From positions 1 to 21,460 of IMG/VR virus record IMGVR_UViG_3300030104_003055: a DNA stretch of 21,460 nucleotides, one strand, 5' to 3'. Positions within the stretch are counted from its first letter, which is position 1, and each line of letters opens with the position of its first letter. The notes under the pieces were generated by a model. That model made no database searches, had not been told where the DNA came from, and saw nothing but the letters and a program-made list of their open reading frames with translations. A program made the position numbers and the translations under genes. Below, in pieces: positions 4 through 13,292 of this stretch. The stretch is from a virus.

Positions 4-267
4 ATGAATGACCAAACAACTCAAATGACACAGTATATTCCTATGGAATCATTATCTAAATGTATGAAAGAAGTAAGATTACTTAAGAAAAAAAATACTG
101 GATATGACAAGGATGCTTTTTGTGGTCCAGGTATTGTAGAAATTAAAGACGGAGAAGTAATGGCATTATACAATGACGTACCAGATGGTGCTACATTAGT
201 TAAAAAAGATATAGATGCAGCAGCATTTGAAAGATGGGCACTTCGTGCCAAAGCTAAGTGGGATTAA
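4..267 (+). CDS. Hypothetical phage protein, 87 aa
   Basis: No family recognised. The ATG lies 3 bases from the window edge and no in-frame stop is visible upstream, so the true start could lie outside. The product is small, mixed-charge and soluble, with a basic stretch near residues 20-33 (KEVRLLKKKN) and no membrane segment. Third codon positions are strongly A/T-biased like the neighbouring genes, which supports real coding over the antisense frame. It is one of only two sizeable plus-strand genes in the window and converges on the long minus-strand operon: its TAA ends 12 bases before the stop codon of the facing ORF at 280. Nothing in the sequence suggests a function. Confidence 0.65.
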   Translation: MNDQTTQMTQYIPMESLSKCMKEVRLLKKKNTGYDKDAFCGPGIVEIKDGEVMALYNDVPDGATLVKKDIDAAAFERWALRAKAKWD

Positions 268-332: not shown

Positions 333-474
333 ACCATAGACACGCTGGACGTTTAGATCCATCATTCCATACCTCAAGCCAAGGACCGTCACCTACTTTA
401 GCATAACCTACTCTTGCAGGCCATTGTTGCTTTCTATAGTTTCGCGTACTCCTTAACTTTCTTAAGCATTCCAT
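280..474 (-). CDS. Hypothetical small protein, 64 aa (last gene of operon)
   Basis: This minus-strand ORF fills the otherwise gene-free stretch after sufE. Residues 13-44 read like a folded protein (WPARVGYAKVGDGPWLEVW), and the C-terminus is basic. No family recognised. The start is uncertain: the ATG at 474 lies inside the sufE 3' end, giving a 41-base overlap, and only a weak purine-rich stretch precedes it. The good Shine-Dalgarno-like AAGGAG further in has no obvious start codon in this frame. The stop codon falls 12 bases from the end of the converging plus-strand gene, a tidy tail-to-tail junction that favours reality. Confidence 0.45.
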   Translation of the reverse strand: MECLRKLRSTRNYRKQQWPARVGYAKVGDGPWLEVWNDGSKRPACLWFRIVHLLPRVFQKKYKL

Positions 475-835
475 GCACACCGTTATTTCTTCCTGGGGTT
501 AATAAAGTATCTAACTTTAATATTTTAAACTCGTCTTGATCAAACTCTTTAATGTCCTGGGCCGAAGATCCACTATACACATCCGCAATGATACAGACCA
601 TGCCTTTAGATATAAGTGCAGCTGAATCAGCACTAAAATAAATTTTATCTTCAACAAAATGCGGAACCAACCATGTTTGGCTCTGACAACTTGGAACCTC
701 AAACTCTCTACTTTTAATTGAATCTTCCATGGATCTGGAATTCTTTCCAAAATCCATAATCCAAAGAAATTTATCTTGTGGGTCATCAATGTTATTTATT
801 ATTTGCGCGTATCTTTTTAATTTTCTTTTTATCAT
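434..835 (-). CDS. sufE: SufE-type sulfur acceptor protein
   Basis: SufE-family proteins accept persulfide sulfur from a SufS-type cysteine desulfurase and pass it on, classically for Fe-S cluster assembly in the cytoplasm. The 133-residue product has the usual family length. The signature VPSCQSQTWLVP (residues 47-58) carries the expected catalytic cysteine at residue 50. It is followed by the family-typical ISKGMVCIIADVYSG (75-89) and a C-terminal TPGRNNGVHGML block. All core parts are intact, so the protein is probably functional. No desulfurase (SufS/IscS) is visible, so it would have to use the host enzyme. It sits last but one in the accessory operon with a PP-loop ATPase and an Fe(II) oxygenase. 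The start overlaps the preceding small gene by 44 bases; later starts would cut conserved helix 1. Confidence 0.9.
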   Translation of the reverse strand: MIKRKLKRYAQIINNIDDPQDKFLWIMDFGKNSRSMEDSIKSREFEVPSCQSQTWLVPHFVEDKIYFSADSAALISKGMVCIIADVYSGSSAQDIKEFDQDEFKILKLDTLLTPGRNNGVHGMLKKVKEYAKL

Positions 836-950
836 TCTTTCTTTTTTTAAATAATTTCATCCAACTTAGCCTTGGTCCAAAATAAATTGCTTTATATTTC
901 TTTCCTAACCAATCATAATCCCAAAACCACTGCCAGACGTGTTTTACCAT
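792..950 (-). CDS. Hypothetical small basic protein, 52 aa
   Basis: No family recognised. The N-terminal third is unusually aromatic (VWQWFWDYDWLG, residues 4-15) and the last 22 residues are almost all lysine or arginine, suggesting nucleic-acid or membrane contact (inference). The ATG at 950 overlaps the stop codon of the preceding gene (TAATG), which points to translational coupling and fixes the start. An in-frame upstream extension to 1058 exists but would overlap the preceding gene by about 100 bases. The 3' end overlaps the start of sufE by 44 bases. Confidence 0.5.
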   Translation of the reverse strand: MVKHVWQWFWDYDWLGKKYKAIYFGPRLSWMKLFKKRKNDKKKIKKIRANNK

Positions 951-1156
951 TAAAATCCCGGGATGAATCCTACCACCCATGTCTTTAAAGCCTGATACCG
1001 GGTCATTATGAGCGTTTTTATTTCCCAGAAAACCGCCCTTTCTTCCCCAGGGTCCCAAACAGCCATTCTTTCGTGTTTTTGACGTAATGACTCACGATAA
1101 CTAAAATCTAGCATGTCTTGTTCTTTTTTCATGTGTTCATAAAAATCTTTAGTCAT
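950..1156 (-). CDS. Hypothetical protein, 68 aa
   Basis: No family recognised. The ATG at 1156 lies within the last codons of the Fe(II) oxygenase gene (8-base overlap), and the stop overlaps the ATG of the next gene (TAATG), so it fits the coupled operon exactly. The product has a charged helical N-terminal half (KDFYEHMKKEQDMLDFSYRE) and a hydrophobic C-terminus (TWVVGFIPGF) too short for a confident membrane helix. A longer reading from 1219 would extend well into the oxygenase gene and is less likely. Confidence 0.55.
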   Translation of the reverse strand: MTKDFYEHMKKEQDMLDFSYRESLRQKHERMAVWDPGEERAVFWEIKTLIMTRYQALKTWVVGFIPGF

Positions 1157-1766
1157 TTTTATTTGGCATGTGAATAACATTATCACGTTCTTTAAATTTA
1201 ATTTGTGCATTAAATGCAATTGTAATACGCTGTCTGTTACTTCTGTTAGTATCTACATCATGTAAAAGATAAGATGGAAAACATAATACATCACCATCAC
1301 CAGGCGCGTGACCTAACATGTTAGAGTGTGGCATATGATCAGGAATCATTTTATACATTTGCTCATGTGTAGCAAATCTAATAACACCTGTGTTAAATCC
1401 TTGCACATAATACACGCCAGATATATCTGCATCCGCACGGTAGTGTGAATGAAATATATTATTACTTCCTACTTCATTTACATTTGTCCAATAGTTAATT
1501 GCAGCATCCATAGGTTTTCTTGGAAAGTAATGATCCATGTAAGCTGACATAATCATACCAATTGGTTTCATTAATTCTGCCTCACATTTATACTTCATCA
1601 TACTACGCCAACATCCAGTATTAGTAGCTGGTAATCCTTTTGGATCCTTTTCTCTTTCCGCTTCTATCTCTGTCTTTAATAAGTTATTTAAATTTTCAAA
1701 ATTATCCCATTTTTTGTAAAATAATCTTGTGTCTTGTATTGGTATTTTAGCTATTACGTCTTTCAT
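1149..1766 (-). CDS. 2-oxoglutarate/Fe(II)-dependent oxygenase
   Basis: Members of this superfamily use Fe(II), O2 and 2-oxoglutarate to hydroxylate or demethylate a substrate. The 205-residue product resembles the bacterial/phage group described as putative 2OG-Fe(II) oxygenases (TIGR02466-like). It shows an FHSHY block (residues 105-109) followed by DISGVYYVQG (114-123), then GDVLCFPSYLLHDV (158-171) with the distal metal histidine at 169, and RQRITIAFN (178-186) with the arginine expected to bind 2-oxoglutarate. The double-stranded beta-helix core looks complete. The substrate cannot be read from the sequence. The ATG at 1766 is preferred over an in-frame GTG at 1793 because GGAG lies 4 bases upstream. 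The start overlaps the zinc-ribbon gene by 20 bases. Confidence 0.8.
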   Translation of the reverse strand: MKDVIAKIPIQDTRLFYKKWDNFENLNNLLKTEIEAEREKDPKGLPATNTGCWRSMMKYKCEAELMKPIGMIMSAYMDHYFPRKPMDAAINYWTNVNEVGSNNIFHSHYRADADISGVYYVQGFNTGVIRFATHEQMYKMIPDHMPHSNMLGHAPGDGDVLCFPSYLLHDVDTNRSNRQRITIAFNAQIKFKERDNVIHMPNKND

Positions 1767-1929
1767 ATTTCTCCGTTGCACATTGTGGACCACATAAGAA
1801 TATCATTTTATATTCTTGATCCGGATTAAACTTTCTATCTAACCAGTATAACAGTTTTTTAAACCATTTACCACATTCAGAACATTTAAATTCAGGTCCT
1901 GGGCGCACGCTGCTTTTATCATACTCCAC
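1747..1929 (-). CDS. Small zinc-ribbon protein, 60 aa
   Basis: The product carries two cysteine pairs, CSECGKWF and CGPQCATEKYERR, about 30 residues apart, the pattern of a zinc ribbon or treble-clef finger. Such small fingers often bind nucleic acid or serve as subunits of modification enzymes, but no specific family was recognised. No ATG gives a short overlap. The GTG at 1929 is preferred because AAGG sits 5 bases upstream and the gene then overlaps the PP-loop gene by only 11 bases; an in-frame ATG at 1977 would add 16 residues and a 59-base overlap. Its place between a PP-loop ATPase and an Fe(II) oxygenase suggests it works with one of them (inference). Confidence 0.6.
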   Translation of the reverse strand: MEYDKSSVRPGPEFKCSECGKWFKKLLYWLDRKFNPDQEYKMIFLCGPQCATEKYERRNS

Positions 1930-3031
1930 ATAAACCTTCACATTCGTCCGCAAACTCTTCATCAAATGTTTCACCAAACAAATTACCTTGAGCTTTTGGT
2001 TCTAAAAAATTAATACTTCTCAAAGGCTTTGCTGATTTATGTAGAAACAATTCTGTCTCTGTATTCTTTAATCCGTGCCTTATTTTGTCATCAAGATCAC
2101 ATGCATCTTCCCAATCCTTAGGATAGTTCTTTTGCATATTTTTCCATTGATCATTGTGATGATAAGGACAACCAATACATGATGACTTACCAGGCATAGG
2201 ATGTTTCTTTATATCACGATACCATTGCAAACAATCAGCACGTGACATTTTCATTTCAATTAAAGGCCAACGTGATGTTAACCATGGCATTCTTGCTTTC
2301 TTCATACGCATGGCTTCATCTGTAGATATACCTATCCATTGTTCCACTATCATATCTTTTTTAACTCTATGTCTTGGTTTAATACCAAGTAATCTTCGCA
2401 TTTCTTTTTGAATAGGGATCACTTTATAGTCATGTGTACACTGTCTATAAAGCATCCCCACTCTTCCACCATTAGGACGTGCAGCAAACAAAGGTGGGTT
2501 TGGTACACGACCAGCAAACGATTTCTCCTCTTCTCTAGACCCTGGTTCTGGGTTCGCTGCTTTGATTAGATCCTCACGGATATTTCCTCTCTCTACAGTG
2601 ATAATAGGACAAATTGTTATTGCTTTCTTTAAATATTCTACATGCTCATAGACAAAAGATGGTTCCCATCCTGTGTCAGCAAAGATCATGTAGTCTGGTT
2701 TATGTTTCGTTAATCCTTCTTGTGCCATGAGTGCCAGACAGGAAGACTGTACCCCTGCCCCGAGTGATAGTATGCGCATCGTCGGTTCACGTTTGTTTCC
2801 TTCTTCGTCAAAGTACTCTGGTTCTTTGGTAGCCGCAACTGCTGCCATCGTATTAAGTTCTTTTTTATTTGGCGCCATTTTACTAGACATTTCTTGTAAA
2901 AGTTTACGCCTTTCAAATTCCATTTGTTCATGATTAATAGCAAATCCTGGTTTAACTCCATGTACAGCTTTTTGATTTGCTGCACGGCTCTTCCCTTGTT
3001 CTTTGTACCCGGGTTTTTTAGTCTCTGTCAT
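1919..3031 (-). CDS. PP-loop ATPase, PAPS-reductase/DndC-like
   Basis: This 370-residue protein belongs to the adenine-nucleotide alpha-hydrolase (PP-loop) superfamily in the phosphoadenosine-phosphosulfate-reductase-like branch. It shows a PP-loop variant SLGAGVQSS (residues 89-97), FADTGWEP (117-124), WIGISTDEA (232-240), a PLIE segment (256-259) and CIGCPYHH (285-292). Cysteines 198, 267, 285 and 288 form a tetrad of the kind that can hold a 4Fe-4S cluster in sulfur-transfer members such as DndC or TtuA. Residues 1-84 are a basic, probably disordered extension absent from classic PAPS reductases. The substrate is unknown; classical sulfate assimilation is less likely than sulfur transfer to a nucleic acid or small molecule. 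The start ATG overlaps the preceding gene by 14 bases and is preceded by GGAGG. Confidence 0.8.
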   Translation of the reverse strand: MTETKKPGYKEQGKSRAANQKAVHGVKPGFAINHEQMEFERRKLLQEMSSKMAPNKKELNTMAAVAATKEPEYFDEEGNKREPTMRILSLGAGVQSSCLALMAQEGLTKHKPDYMIFADTGWEPSFVYEHVEYLKKAITICPIITVERGNIREDLIKAANPEPGSREEEKSFAGRVPNPPLFAARPNGGRVGMLYRQCTHDYKVIPIQKEMRRLLGIKPRHRVKKDMIVEQWIGISTDEAMRMKKARMPWLTSRWPLIEMKMSRADCLQWYRDIKKHPMPGKSSCIGCPYHHNDQWKNMQKNYPKDWEDACDLDDKIRHGLKNTETELFLHKSAKPLRSINFLEPKAQGNLFGETFDEEFADECEGLCGV

Positions 3032-3539
3032 AGGCCTCCAACTTCTTTAATGTACTGATGATTTTTTGCGTATAATATACATCTTCTGCATATATTGCAA
3101 GTGTCATAGCTAACTTCTCTAAGTCAACTATCTTATTGAAATACTGAGATAATCTTTCTTCTCTAAACTGTTTATAATGATGGTTATTATTAAGTAAATA
3201 CATATAGTAAGAAATGGATTCGCACTTTGTCTCAAAGATCCTAAGCCCCCAGCTTGCATTAGGATTATTTCGCGGCTTTAGTTGATCATCTGATGAGTCA
3301 AACGTGCGGATTCCAAGGAGGTTATTACCTTCCACGGCAAACCTAGATTTGCCCCAATTAGACTCATGAATTGCTTGAGCTATAACTAAATTAACTGGTA
3401 CTCTTTCTTCTTCTGAATACATAGAATTAAGATGCAATGCACACGCACTTACATCATCTATAAATTCATCATTAGTGGTGTAATCCATTTCTGGATTAAA
3501 CCCTATGCAAATCATTAATGTAACACAAATCCAGTTCAT
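3018..3539 (-). CDS. Bax-like glucosaminidase (peptidoglycan hydrolase)
   Basis: The protein resembles the Bax/FlgJ-type N-acetylglucosaminidase fold (GH73-like), which cleaves the glycan strand of peptidoglycan. The key block is VPVNLVIAQAIHESNWGKSRFA (residues 47-68) with the likely catalytic glutamate at 59, then GNNLLGIRTF (71-80), SWGLRIFET and a YYMYLLN repeat-like helix. The first 14 residues are hydrophobic (WICVTLMICIGF) and could be a weak export signal, but there is no clear cleavage site. The ATG at 3539 overlaps the DNA polymerase stop (ATGA); a TTG three codons upstream is less likely. It sits between the polymerase and the sulfur genes, far from the endolysin at 12786, which is odd for a lysis enzyme. 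It might be virion-borne or act early at the cell wall. Confidence 0.75.
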   Translation of the reverse strand: MNWICVTLMICIGFNPEMDYTTNDEFIDDVSACALHLNSMYSEEERVPVNLVIAQAIHESNWGKSRFAVEGNNLLGIRTFDSSDDQLKPRNNPNASWGLRIFETKCESISYYMYLLNNNHHYKQFREERLSQYFNKIVDLEKLAMTLAIYAEDVYYTQKIISTLKKLEAYDRD

Positions 3540-5368
3540 CCGCCCCAACTCTCTCCAAGATCTATATCAGCTTTAGAAGGCACCTCTAGTTCTACACATG
3601 TTTCCATAACTCGTTGTATTTCTTTAGCTTGTTTCTCATCTTTAACAGAGCAATCTAATTCATCGTGCACTTGTATTAAAGGTACTACTCCTAGCTCCTC
3701 ATATACATCTACCATGGCTTTCTTAGTTTGATCTGCCGCTGATCCTTGTATCAATCTATTTAAAGCTTTGTATGTACCAGCTCTTTTTATTGCTTCACCA
3801 TACTCTACCTTTGCTTGATTGTGTGGTAATGCTTTATGTACACCCCACTGTGTAGGTTCCCATAAATCAAATCTACATTTACGACCAAGTAATGTGCGAA
3901 TAATACCTTTAGAATTAGCACGATTCATTACCGCTTCCAACATACCTTGCATAAAAGGTACACGTTCACGGAAATCTTTCAACATTTTTTTAGCTTCCTG
4001 AGGATCTATATCTAACTCACGAGCCATCTTGTTATAACCCATGCCATACATTACACCTAAACCAATAGTCTTAGCTAGTCTTCTTTCGACCCCCGCCATG
4101 TCTGCCGTTTGTTGGTGAAAATCAAGATCACTTTTCTTATAGGCTTCTTTAACTTCTTCAGCGCCCAATTGTCCGACGAGGCATGCCCAATGCGTAAGTA
4201 ACCTGGGCTCTTGTTGCGAGTAGTCTGCTTTAAGCCAATACTCTCCAATTTCCGGGATAAATAGTTTACGTATCTCTTTAGCAAATTGACCGCGACTCGG
4301 TATCTGCTGCAAATTAGGATGATTGTAACTAAATCTACCAGATACAGTGCCACCGCTATCAGATCTAATTTGATTAATGTGCGCGTGAATTCTACCATTT
4401 GTGTTGTGTTTTAACAGACCTTGTAAAAAAGTTCCACGTAATTTATTAAGCTCACGTGCTTGCATAATAAGACGTGGTAGCTCATGCGGATGGTCAGTTA
4501 AAAACATTTTGGTAAATGATGGAGCATCTGTTTTAGTAGTTCTTTCGTATGGTAAATTTAAAGCATCAAAAGCTTTTGAAATAGAAGCTGCTGCCCATAT
4601 CTCTACATCCTGGTTAGTTAAATCCTTTATTCTTTTTAAAAGTTTCTTCTCTTTGTTTTTAAATTTACTATTTAAATCAACTACTTTTTCTTCGTCAAAT
4701 CTAACACCTTTTTTTGTCATGTTAAAAATAACACGGATTAATCTGCATTCAATATCATAGATTGTATCAAGATTATCCTTCTTAATCTCCCATGCTAATT
4801 TCTCATACAACTTTAGCGTTAGCCTTGCGTCTTCCTCAGCATACTCTCCTACAAATGTAGCCGGTAATTTATACATTTCAGCCTTTGCATCTACACCAAA
4901 TGATGCCGCTGCTTCTTTAAGTTTAGCTTCACTCTTAAATTCACCAAGGTAATCAAACGATATACTATTTAATGTATAAGAATATCTATTCTCATCAATA
5001 AGCGCCATTGCTACCATTGTGTCATGAATACGACCTTTAACTTCTATGCCTAATACACTAAGCCAACCTATGTCGTATTGTGCATTGTGAAATACTTTCT
5101 CTAACTTTTCATCTTCACACAATGATTTAATATATTTAATAACTTTCTTGCTATCCATGTTACCCCCACCTTCATGGGCGATAGGATAGTAAGCTTTAAA
5201 TCCATTAGCAGCTACAGCTATACCAATAACTGCACCTATCTTTTTAGGCCACCCAGGACCATCTTTAATTAATCCTGGGTCACATGTTTCTAAATCAATT
5301 GCTATTTTCTCCCGATTACTTAAATCCGGAAATTCCGTAGGTGCTATCCAATCTGAATTAATTGTCAT
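3536..5368 (-). CDS. Family A DNA polymerase with 3'-5' exonuclease
   Basis: This is the phage replicative polymerase, 610 residues, similar in design to T7 gp5 and the Klenow part of Pol I. The proofreading domain is intact: Exo I IDLET (D25/E27), Exo II HNAQYD (D99) and Exo III YAEED (Y176/D180). The polymerase domain has motif A WLKADYSQQEPR (D382), motif B RRLAKTIGLGVMYG (R429, K433, Y441) and motif C QVHDE (H568, D569, E570). The position equivalent to E. coli Phe762 is leucine (L437). No 5'-3' exonuclease domain is present. The start overlaps the preceding gene by 11 bases and its stop overlaps the glucosaminidase ATG. Confidence 0.97.
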   Translation of the reverse strand: MTINSDWIAPTEFPDLSNREKIAIDLETCDPGLIKDGPGWPKKIGAVIGIAVAANGFKAYYPIAHEGGGNMDSKKVIKYIKSLCEDEKLEKVFHNAQYDIGWLSVLGIEVKGRIHDTMVAMALIDENRYSYTLNSISFDYLGEFKSEAKLKEAAASFGVDAKAEMYKLPATFVGEYAEEDARLTLKLYEKLAWEIKKDNLDTIYDIECRLIRVIFNMTKKGVRFDEEKVVDLNSKFKNKEKKLLKRIKDLTNQDVEIWAAASISKAFDALNLPYERTTKTDAPSFTKMFLTDHPHELPRLIMQARELNKLRGTFLQGLLKHNTNGRIHAHINQIRSDSGGTVSGRFSYNHPNLQQIPSRGQFAKEIRKLFIPEIGEYWLKADYSQQEPRLLTHWACLVGQLGAEEVKEAYKKSDLDFHQQTADMAGVERRLAKTIGLGVMYGMGYNKMARELDIDPQEAKKMLKDFRERVPFMQGMLEAVMNRANSKGIIRTLLGRKCRFDLWEPTQWGVHKALPHNQAKVEYGEAIKRAGTYKALNRLIQGSAADQTKKAMVDVYEELGVVPLIQVHDELDCSVKDEKQAKEIQRVMETCVELEVPSKADIDLGESWGG

Positions 5369-5642
5369 GTTTTAATTCTCCTGCTATTGCCATGTATGCT
5401 GAAGCATCGACATAATCATCTACGTTAGCCTTACCTCTTTGTGATCTTGATATTTTTAATAATGCCATCATCGTTGCTACTTCATCAGAATTAATAGCCA
5501 CGCATGGTTTGAGTTTTTCATCTAAAAATACAGTCCAAAATTCTGCAATTTGTTCATGGTTTTGTTTTGTATCTCCATGTGTCTCTTGTCTTCCACCGTT
5601 AACTAACTCAGCGGCTTTTAATAATATTTCACTCTTGTTCAT
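5358..5642 (-). CDS. DUF6378-like phage protein
   Basis: The 94-residue protein matches, from memory, the small phage family DUF6378: it has RQETHGDTKQNHEQIAEFW (residues 18-36) and EVATMMALLKISRSQRG (54-70), followed by VDDYVDASAYMAIAGEL. The conserved His/Glu/Asp residues and all-helical look recall small nucleotide pyrophosphohydrolases of the MazG kind, but the catalytic EExxE motif of MazG is not evident, so function stays open. It is coupled to both neighbours: its ATG overlaps the UvrD-like gene stop (ATGA), and its end overlaps the DNA polymerase start. Placement between helicase and polymerase fits a role in replication or nucleotide supply (inference). Confidence 0.75.
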   Translation of the reverse strand: MNKSEILLKAAELVNGGRQETHGDTKQNHEQIAEFWTVFLDEKLKPCVAINSDEVATMMALLKISRSQRGKANVDDYVDASAYMAIAGELKHDN

Positions 5643-12785: not shown

Positions 12786-13292
12786 CTAAATTTCTAATGC
12801 TAATTTGGTAGTTTCTTCTACCCTTTTTGTCCAACCTTTTCCAAAGGTATCAAAAGTAGATAATTCTTCGTAGTATTTTTGTCTTCCATTTTGATAATGA
12901 CCAATAGCATGTGCAACATTAAATTTGTTAACATACTCTTCTACTTTTGCAAGGGTCATAGGTCCAATGCCACCATCTGCTTTAGTTCCTACTAATGTCT
13001 GAAGATATTTTGCTGCTCTTCCGGGTCCTGCATTCACACCAAAATCAAAAACACATAGATCTAAACCTGATGGTAAATCATCACATTTCATTTTATCCCA
13101 ATAACCTTTTTTGTAAATAGGTGCTACGTCTTCCACTGTTAAATCTTTCATGTCTTTTGTGCCACCATGTTCTTCATAAACTCTTTTAGTTACACCAAGA
13201 TTTGTTTCTCCACCTGGGTCCTTGGGGTGATTAACATATCCACCTTCATGATGTAAAATTGTTTTTAAGCATTGTTCGTAATTATGTTTCAT
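12786..13292 (-). CDS. Endolysin, glycosyl hydrolase family 108
   Basis: A 168-residue muramidase-type endolysin that degrades peptidoglycan for host lysis. The N-terminus has the GH108 hallmark HHEGGYVNHPKDPGGETNLG (residues 14-33) with the catalytic glutamate at 16, then GVTKRVYEE. The C-terminal half contains FDFGVNAGPGRAAKYLQ and DGGIGPMTLAKV, typical of the family's peptidoglycan-binding part. No signal peptide is evident, so release would need a holin; the small membrane protein encoded just upstream is the obvious candidate. The ATG overlaps that gene's stop (TAATG). The ribosome site is weak, so translation probably depends on coupling. Confidence 0.93.
   Translation of the reverse strand: MKHNYEQCLKTILHHEGGYVNHPKDPGGETNLGVTKRVYEEHGGTKDMKDLTVEDVAPIYKKGYWDKMKCDDLPSGLDLCVFDFGVNAGPGRAAKYLQTLVGTKADGGIGPMTLAKVEEYVNKFNVAHAIGHYQNGRQKYYEELSTFDTFGKGWTKRVEETTKLALEI

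Follow-up and report, generated by a model that had tools for sequence, protein, structure and literature searches.

The described systems closest to the locus considered here are SspABCD, in which SspD is an ATP pyrophosphatase and SspA a cysteine desulfurase, and DndABCDE, which contains the related PP-loop ATPase DndC. A complex of SspA with SspD has been reported (PMC7188994), and housekeeping desulfurases have been reported to stand in for dedicated ones in phosphorothioation systems (PMC12839542). Phage genes named for 3'-phosphoadenosine 5'-phosphosulfate (PAPS) reductase are widespread and often reported as sulfate-assimilation genes, with no established function in the literature available as open-access text. 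Here we analyse IMGVR_UViG_3300030104_003055, a complete virus record of 21,460 bases in IMG/VR; the window, the whole stretch of DNA that we analysed, covers this entire record. Its minus strand encodes a PP-loop protein, hereafter PPL, and a SufE, which are best read as an enzyme of sulfur transfer that resembles SspD and a viral SufE dedicated to it:

1919..3031, minus strand: PPL, an SspD-like PP-loop ATP-pyrophosphatase of 370 residues (phrog_424, PADLOC SspD, invariant columns, AlphaFold core and PDB neighbours)
434..835, minus strand: SufE persulfide carrier of 133 residues (PF02657; alignment with E. coli SufE)

The pairing of these genes holds across related viruses. We compared neighbourhoods at about 200 viral loci from four IMG/VR scans, counting after removal of duplicate sequences and restricting the counts to SufE loci with 3 kb of upstream sequence and to N-extended PPLs followed by 3 kb of sequence. 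All 76 distinct SufE loci have PPL upstream, and SufE stands downstream of all 37 distinct N-extended PPLs, in 35 cases within 3 kb; in loci L262 and L265 SufE stands 3.6-3.8 kb from PPL, behind extra oxygenase genes. The genes around the pair turn over, such that among the 37 distinct loci a DUF6378 gene occurs in 26, an endolysin in 21, a 52-residue open reading frame (ORF) in 20, an oxygenase in 16 and ORF88p in 14. Because the oxygenase is present at only 16 of 37 loci, we reject it as a core part and regard it as accessory; the core is PPL plus SufE, usually with a 66-residue ORF. Thus, the proposal in the original prediction that SufE and the PP-loop protein belong together is borne out, whereas its single five-part cassette is not, since the oxygenase, a zinc ribbon and the 52-residue protein are optional across relatives. 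That a persulfide-carrying partner is kept while its neighbours change points to sulfur transfer rather than sulfate assimilation.

Searches led by SufE itself give a similar picture. Two SufE alignment scans, one of them a fifth scan beyond the four above and led by an unrelated viral SufE, returned the same clade only; the latter scan added a few new loci without PPL, in each of which SufE lies near the start of the contig piece. Other phage SufEs were found in three GenBank records only, with no PPL detected nearby, and we found no mention of a SufE-PPL pairing in the open-access text searched. Contig L275 (NHBP01000011.1), filed as a Planctomycetaceae metagenome-assembled genome, carries a PPL (88% identical), an oxygenase, small ORFs and a SufE of the phage clade, and is probably viral DNA binned with a bacterium.

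The viral SufE is intact, as had been claimed from the window. It matches PF02657 at 103 bits against a cut-off of 27 (E = 1e-29) and keeps both the catalytic Cys50, which lies in a CQSQ motif, aligns with E. coli Cys51 and is invariant in 18 viral SufEs, and Arg116, which corresponds to E. coli Arg119 and is invariant in the alignment of viral SufEs. SufE was found in 59-120 IMG/VR contigs and relatives of PPL in more than 240, and the median ratios of nonsynonymous to synonymous substitution (dN/dS) are 0.15 and 0.075, respectively.

PPL consists of an N-terminal arm (residues 1-84), the loop S89-LGAGVQ-S96, two clade-specific cysteines, C98 and C141, and the conserved cysteines C198, C267, C285-x2-C288 and, at the C-terminus, C364-x3-C368. 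Across 49 viral and cellular PPL sequences, C198, C285, C288, C364 and C368 are invariant and C267 is nearly so. PPL matches phrog_424, the phage 'PAPS reductase' family, with E = 6e-46 and motifs shared in alignments; among defence models it matches PADLOC SspD with E = 7e-11, as does its relative in pelagiphage HTVC034P with E = 1.9e-19, and a PADLOC scan of both proteins gave no Dnd match. Identity is roughly 36-50% to relatives in HTVC034P, Salisaeta phage SIP1, Thermus phage P23-77 and alphaproteobacterial mobile elements. The name of phrog_424 and the PP-loop/CysH fold would suit a PAPS reductase of the CysH type with a role in boosting sulfate assimilation, yet we reject this highly improbable reading on two grounds besides the closer resemblance to SspD: PPL scores only 16.7 bits (E = 0.008) against PF01507, under the cut-off of 22.5 bits, and the C-terminal catalytic motif of CysH, ECGxH, is replaced by an invariant Cys-x3-Cys in the C-terminus ECEGLCGV. 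This Cys-x3-Cys sits on a predicted flexible tail and recalls the ECGxH tail of CysH but differs from it. A weak PDB lead for the PPL profile, 'PptA' (21fy; E = 0.005), for which we found no paper, was not used.

Structural modelling is in keeping with this family assignment. Most of the core of the AlphaFold model (about residues 71-340) is confident, and the fold neighbours in the PDB are CysH/adenosine phosphosulfate reductases, the [4Fe-4S] tRNA thiolase NcsA, YcfA and the sulfur transferase LarE. As the TM-scores of these neighbours are low, we consider the predicted PP-loop fold class of PPL secure but not its function.

The SufE-linked PPLs form a single clade on a long branch (support 100/100) and differ from their sisters in two respects. 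Their N-terminal arm spans about 84-125 residues, compared with 5-32 in sisters, and C98 and C141 are both present in all 83 distinct SufE-linked PPLs, whereas position 98 is Thr, Val or Ala in 26 other viral PPLs (Cys in 0 of 26). C98 lies two residues beyond the PP-loop serine. The arm is a natural candidate for docking SufE, and C98 and C141 are natural candidates for residues that accept its persulfide. These features also bear on the main rival explanation, in which SufE is an iron-sulfur auxiliary gene that stimulates host SufS to supply clusters in the infected cell, among them one that PPL probably carries, while no sulfur reaches nucleic acid via SufE. SufE in marine viromes has been read in this way (PMC8940887), the conserved PPL cysteines would fit a cluster, and according to PMC7188994 the desulfurase of the Dnd system helps to build the cluster of DndC. 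However, such a role would leave unexplained why SufE tracks PPL alone and why the SufE-linked PPLs have an N-terminal arm and two fixed cysteines, and sister PPLs, in which the six conserved cysteines are also present, manage without SufE. We regard this explanation as possible but rather doubtful.

A sulfur-transfer role would need a sulfur source outside the virus. Cysteine desulfurase (PF00266) is absent from 12 large relatives, in searches whose controls were positive, and a host desulfurase must therefore be borrowed if sulfur is moved, both points agreeing with what had been proposed from the window. We propose a viral sulfur relay made up of PPL and SufE, in which sulfur would pass from host SufS to SufE to PPL to a nucleic acid, most plausibly phage DNA; in our judgment the chances for and against this proposal are about equal. 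Viral SufE would dock on the host cysteine desulfurase SufS, take persulfide on Cys50 and hand it to the SspD-like PPL, which would use ATP to activate an oxygen of the nucleic acid and put sulfur in its place. Cysteines with an iron-sulfur or redox role, the mobile Cys-x3-Cys tail at the C-terminus, and Cys98 and Cys141 of the SufE-linked clade may take part in this chemistry. We infer both the SufS-SufE-PPL transfer and the DNA target from the linkage, protein families, conserved cysteines and absence of tested partners that we observe.

Phage DNA is the most plausible acceptor because PPL follows a DNA polymerase in a replication operon and adjoins ardC in bacterial mobile elements. Among cellular PPL loci, 28 have an ArdC-like anti-restriction gene upstream and 44 a ParB-like gene downstream, on the same strand. 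The similarity to SspD, the position in the operon and this ArdC/ParB context are hints that favor DNA rather than proof of it. Alternatively, the target of PPL and SufE may be tRNA or a nucleotide in free form, whose thiolation could, for instance, adjust translation or provide modified nucleotides for the polymerase. SufE-type relays serve several acceptors, and the tRNA thiolase NcsA appears in the list of fold neighbours of PPL; we nonetheless consider this unlikely, given that searches of the window and of five large relatives found no tRNA genes and that the genomic context is one of DNA replication or, in bacteria, anti-restriction. The ArdC neighbours and the resemblance to SspD could also suggest counter-defence, in which the pair would block sulfur-based defences of the host, either because SufE ties up host SufS or because PPL serves as a decoy SspD or DndC. 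This is less probable still, as all catalytic-looking residues of PPL are kept and the protein as a whole is strongly constrained (dN/dS 0.075), unlike a decoy, and the loss of host SufS would presumably harm the infected cell.

Two further observations concern PPL relatives outside the clade. The alphaproteobacterial relatives (L276-L354) lie in a recurrent ArdC-PPL-ParB block that looks like a conserved mobile-element module. In the distant Mycobacterium phage phiT46-1 (L150:2436-5542), cysteine dioxygenase and glutaredoxin genes lie near a PAPS-reductase-like PPL gene, and these neighbours are an independent sign, though no proof, of sulfur chemistry.

Several observations weigh against a relay from SufE through PPL to DNA. 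The PPL-SufE association has a single origin, and because it arose only once the linkage counts are not independent; by the same token, one evolutionary event could have brought unrelated changes too, so the roles suggested for the arm and the extra cysteines are conjectural. The arm and the C-terminal tail are also modelled at low confidence by AlphaFold. Twelve contigs of 11-61 kb from sister phages with related replication genes carry PPL, mostly between UvrD and PolA, without SufE; most PPLs elsewhere likewise occur without it, and no SufE-PPL adjacency was found among 79 bacterial genome loci. The original prediction took independent occurrence of the genes in relatives as evidence against it, and this is half the case: PPL does occur without SufE in these sister phages, yet SufE is accompanied by PPL at every IMG/VR locus that includes upstream sequence. 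We rejected co-evolution by mirror-tree, in which the partial correlation between SufE and PPL (0.47) equals that of a control pair, DUF6378 and PPL (0.46). Finally, DndE (PF08870) is absent from 15 records, and a PADLOC scan of 66 further proteins from two large relatives gave no Ssp or Dnd match, which leaves the relatives scanned with no DndE or recognised Ssp partner that would target DNA. A search for DUF4007 (SspB) was empty, and as its controls were silent too it is uninformative. With both desulfurase and DndE missing, a standard Dnd or Ssp system can be rejected, in agreement with the earlier assessment.

The genes that lie between PPL and SufE in the window are as follows:

1747..1977, minus strand (best ATG 1962): zinc-ribbon-like small protein with CxxC ... 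CxxxC, optional (recognised from sequence; 23/42 loci by tblastn)
1149..1793, minus strand (best ATG 1766): 2-oxoglutarate/Fe(II) oxygenase-like protein of the PF13759/TIGR02466 group, optional (PF13759, 2.7e-14; phrog_81, 5.5e-23; 16/37 distinct loci)
950..1150, minus strand: 66-residue protein, a near-constant companion (36/37 distinct loci by profile, 29/42 by tblastn)
792..950, minus strand: 52-residue basic, tryptophan-rich protein, optional (overlaps the SufE start; 20/37 distinct loci)

The coupled minus-strand run described earlier is real: every named ORF exists and lies on the minus strand, and neighbouring ORFs overlap at their ends by about 1-50 bases. Recurrence in relatives, which extends to the 66- and 52-residue ORFs, together with dN/dS also confirms that these are conserved genes rather than chance ORFs. 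The median dN/dS is 0.18 for the oxygenase, and the small ORFs are under weaker constraint (0.29 and 0.66, the latter for the 66-residue ORF). The original prediction had set the oxygenase beside base-hydroxylating enzymes of the TET/JBP type, but it has no TET/JBP match and hits PF13759 and TIGR02466 alone. Neither the 66- nor the 52-residue protein has a Pfam match, and Pfam zinc-finger matches to the zinc ribbon are only below threshold; for the latter we use the tblastn count because the profile count (34/37) takes in short matches that fall where this ORF overlaps PPL. Some relatives have several homologues of the oxygenase between PPL and SufE: L262:2335-5217, L263:3208-4579 and L265:3200-5902 contain two to four, at least two of them in tandem. 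Loci that lack the oxygenase and zinc ribbon have instead a 42-residue, very basic ORF and a coiled-coil-like ORF of about 62 residues (L134:7576-7764; after PPL in G001/G002).

These genes end a minus-strand replication operon that runs from an ssDNA-binding-like protein (that is, one for single-stranded DNA) through primase, a VRR-like nuclease, UvrD, DUF6378 and PolA to the endolysin, PPL, zinc ribbon, oxygenase, two small ORFs and SufE. The remaining features near the pair are:

5358-5642, minus strand: DUF6378 protein (26/37 distinct loci)
3536..5368, minus strand: family A DNA polymerase, directly upstream in the same operon (PF00476, 1.6e-68; nearest isolates HTVC023P and relatives)
3018..3539, minus strand: glucosaminidase-type endolysin, optional, between polymerase and PPL (PF01832, 4e-19; 21/37 loci)
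4-267, plus strand: convergent 87-residue ORF beyond SufE (no family match)

The window polymerase (median dN/dS 0.063) is 51-53% identical to those of HTVC023P, 023Pt_psg01 and DSL-LC04, a relative of 61.7 kb has a terminase with 56-69% identity to those of HTVC023P, 023Pt_psg01, DSL-LC04 and HTVC027P, and the gene order primase-UvrD-PolA is common to the window phage and HTVC023P-type pelagiphages. By these sequence comparisons the window phage is related to HTVC023P-type pelagiphages, and given the similarity of polymerase and terminase to those of Pelagibacter phages its host is probably SAR11 or another marine proteobacterium. A contig of 25.9 kb that is near-identical to the window is also present, and an Rfam search gave no match. 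The PHROGs label 'phosphofructokinase' on the DUF6378 protein looks misannotated. The phage has two unlike lysis-type enzymes, the glucosaminidase and a GH108-like lysozyme (12786-13292), and the DNA of the lysozyme gene is 77.6% identical to that of myovirus Mosig EXVC030M. The 87-residue ORF is kept in many relatives, at up to 3 kb from PPL in 14 of 37 loci and up to 2.5 kb from SufE in 37 of 67.

Our findings may bear on how phages of the ocean use sulfur. If the target is DNA, abundant marine phages would bear a mark that is either akin to phosphorothioation or a thio-base, made by way of the host iron-sulfur machinery, and if the relay is real, virome reports of sufE as an iron-sulfur auxiliary gene would be recast. 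We offer tentatively, as a possibility rather than an expectation, the wider idea of a new sulfur-based DNA modification of abundant ocean phages, in which an enzyme resembling SspD and a viral SufE, the latter hijacking SufS of the host, would act without the Dnd/Ssp nickase and ATPase partners; more broadly, the members of the orphan phage 'PAPS reductase' family would then be nucleic-acid thiolases.

Among known systems, the locus resembles SspABCD in that PPL matches PADLOC SspD and a sulfur donor would feed the PP-loop enzyme in both. It differs in that the viral donor is SufE with a borrowed host desulfurase, the virus being without SspA, and in that no SspB or SspC was recognised in the relatives scanned. 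The likeness to DndABCDE is a functional analogy through DndC, whereas DndE and a desulfurase were not found here and the best defence-library match is SspD rather than DndC. The thymidine hypermodification partner genes of HTVC023P-type pelagiphages likewise make up modification modules within this lineage of phages (PMC9599517), in contrast to the sulfur-type module here; the matches listed in a Pfam scan of two large relatives include none to such enzymes. The viral SufE shares with the SufE/CsdE acceptors of the Suf system a full SufE domain, the catalytic Cys and the conserved Arg, but is phage-encoded, has no desulfurase found with it and is always near an SspD-like enzyme. PPL itself is a clear member of the phrog_424 'PAPS reductase-like' family, within which SufE, a long N-terminal arm and fixed Cys98 and Cys141 belong to the window clade alone.

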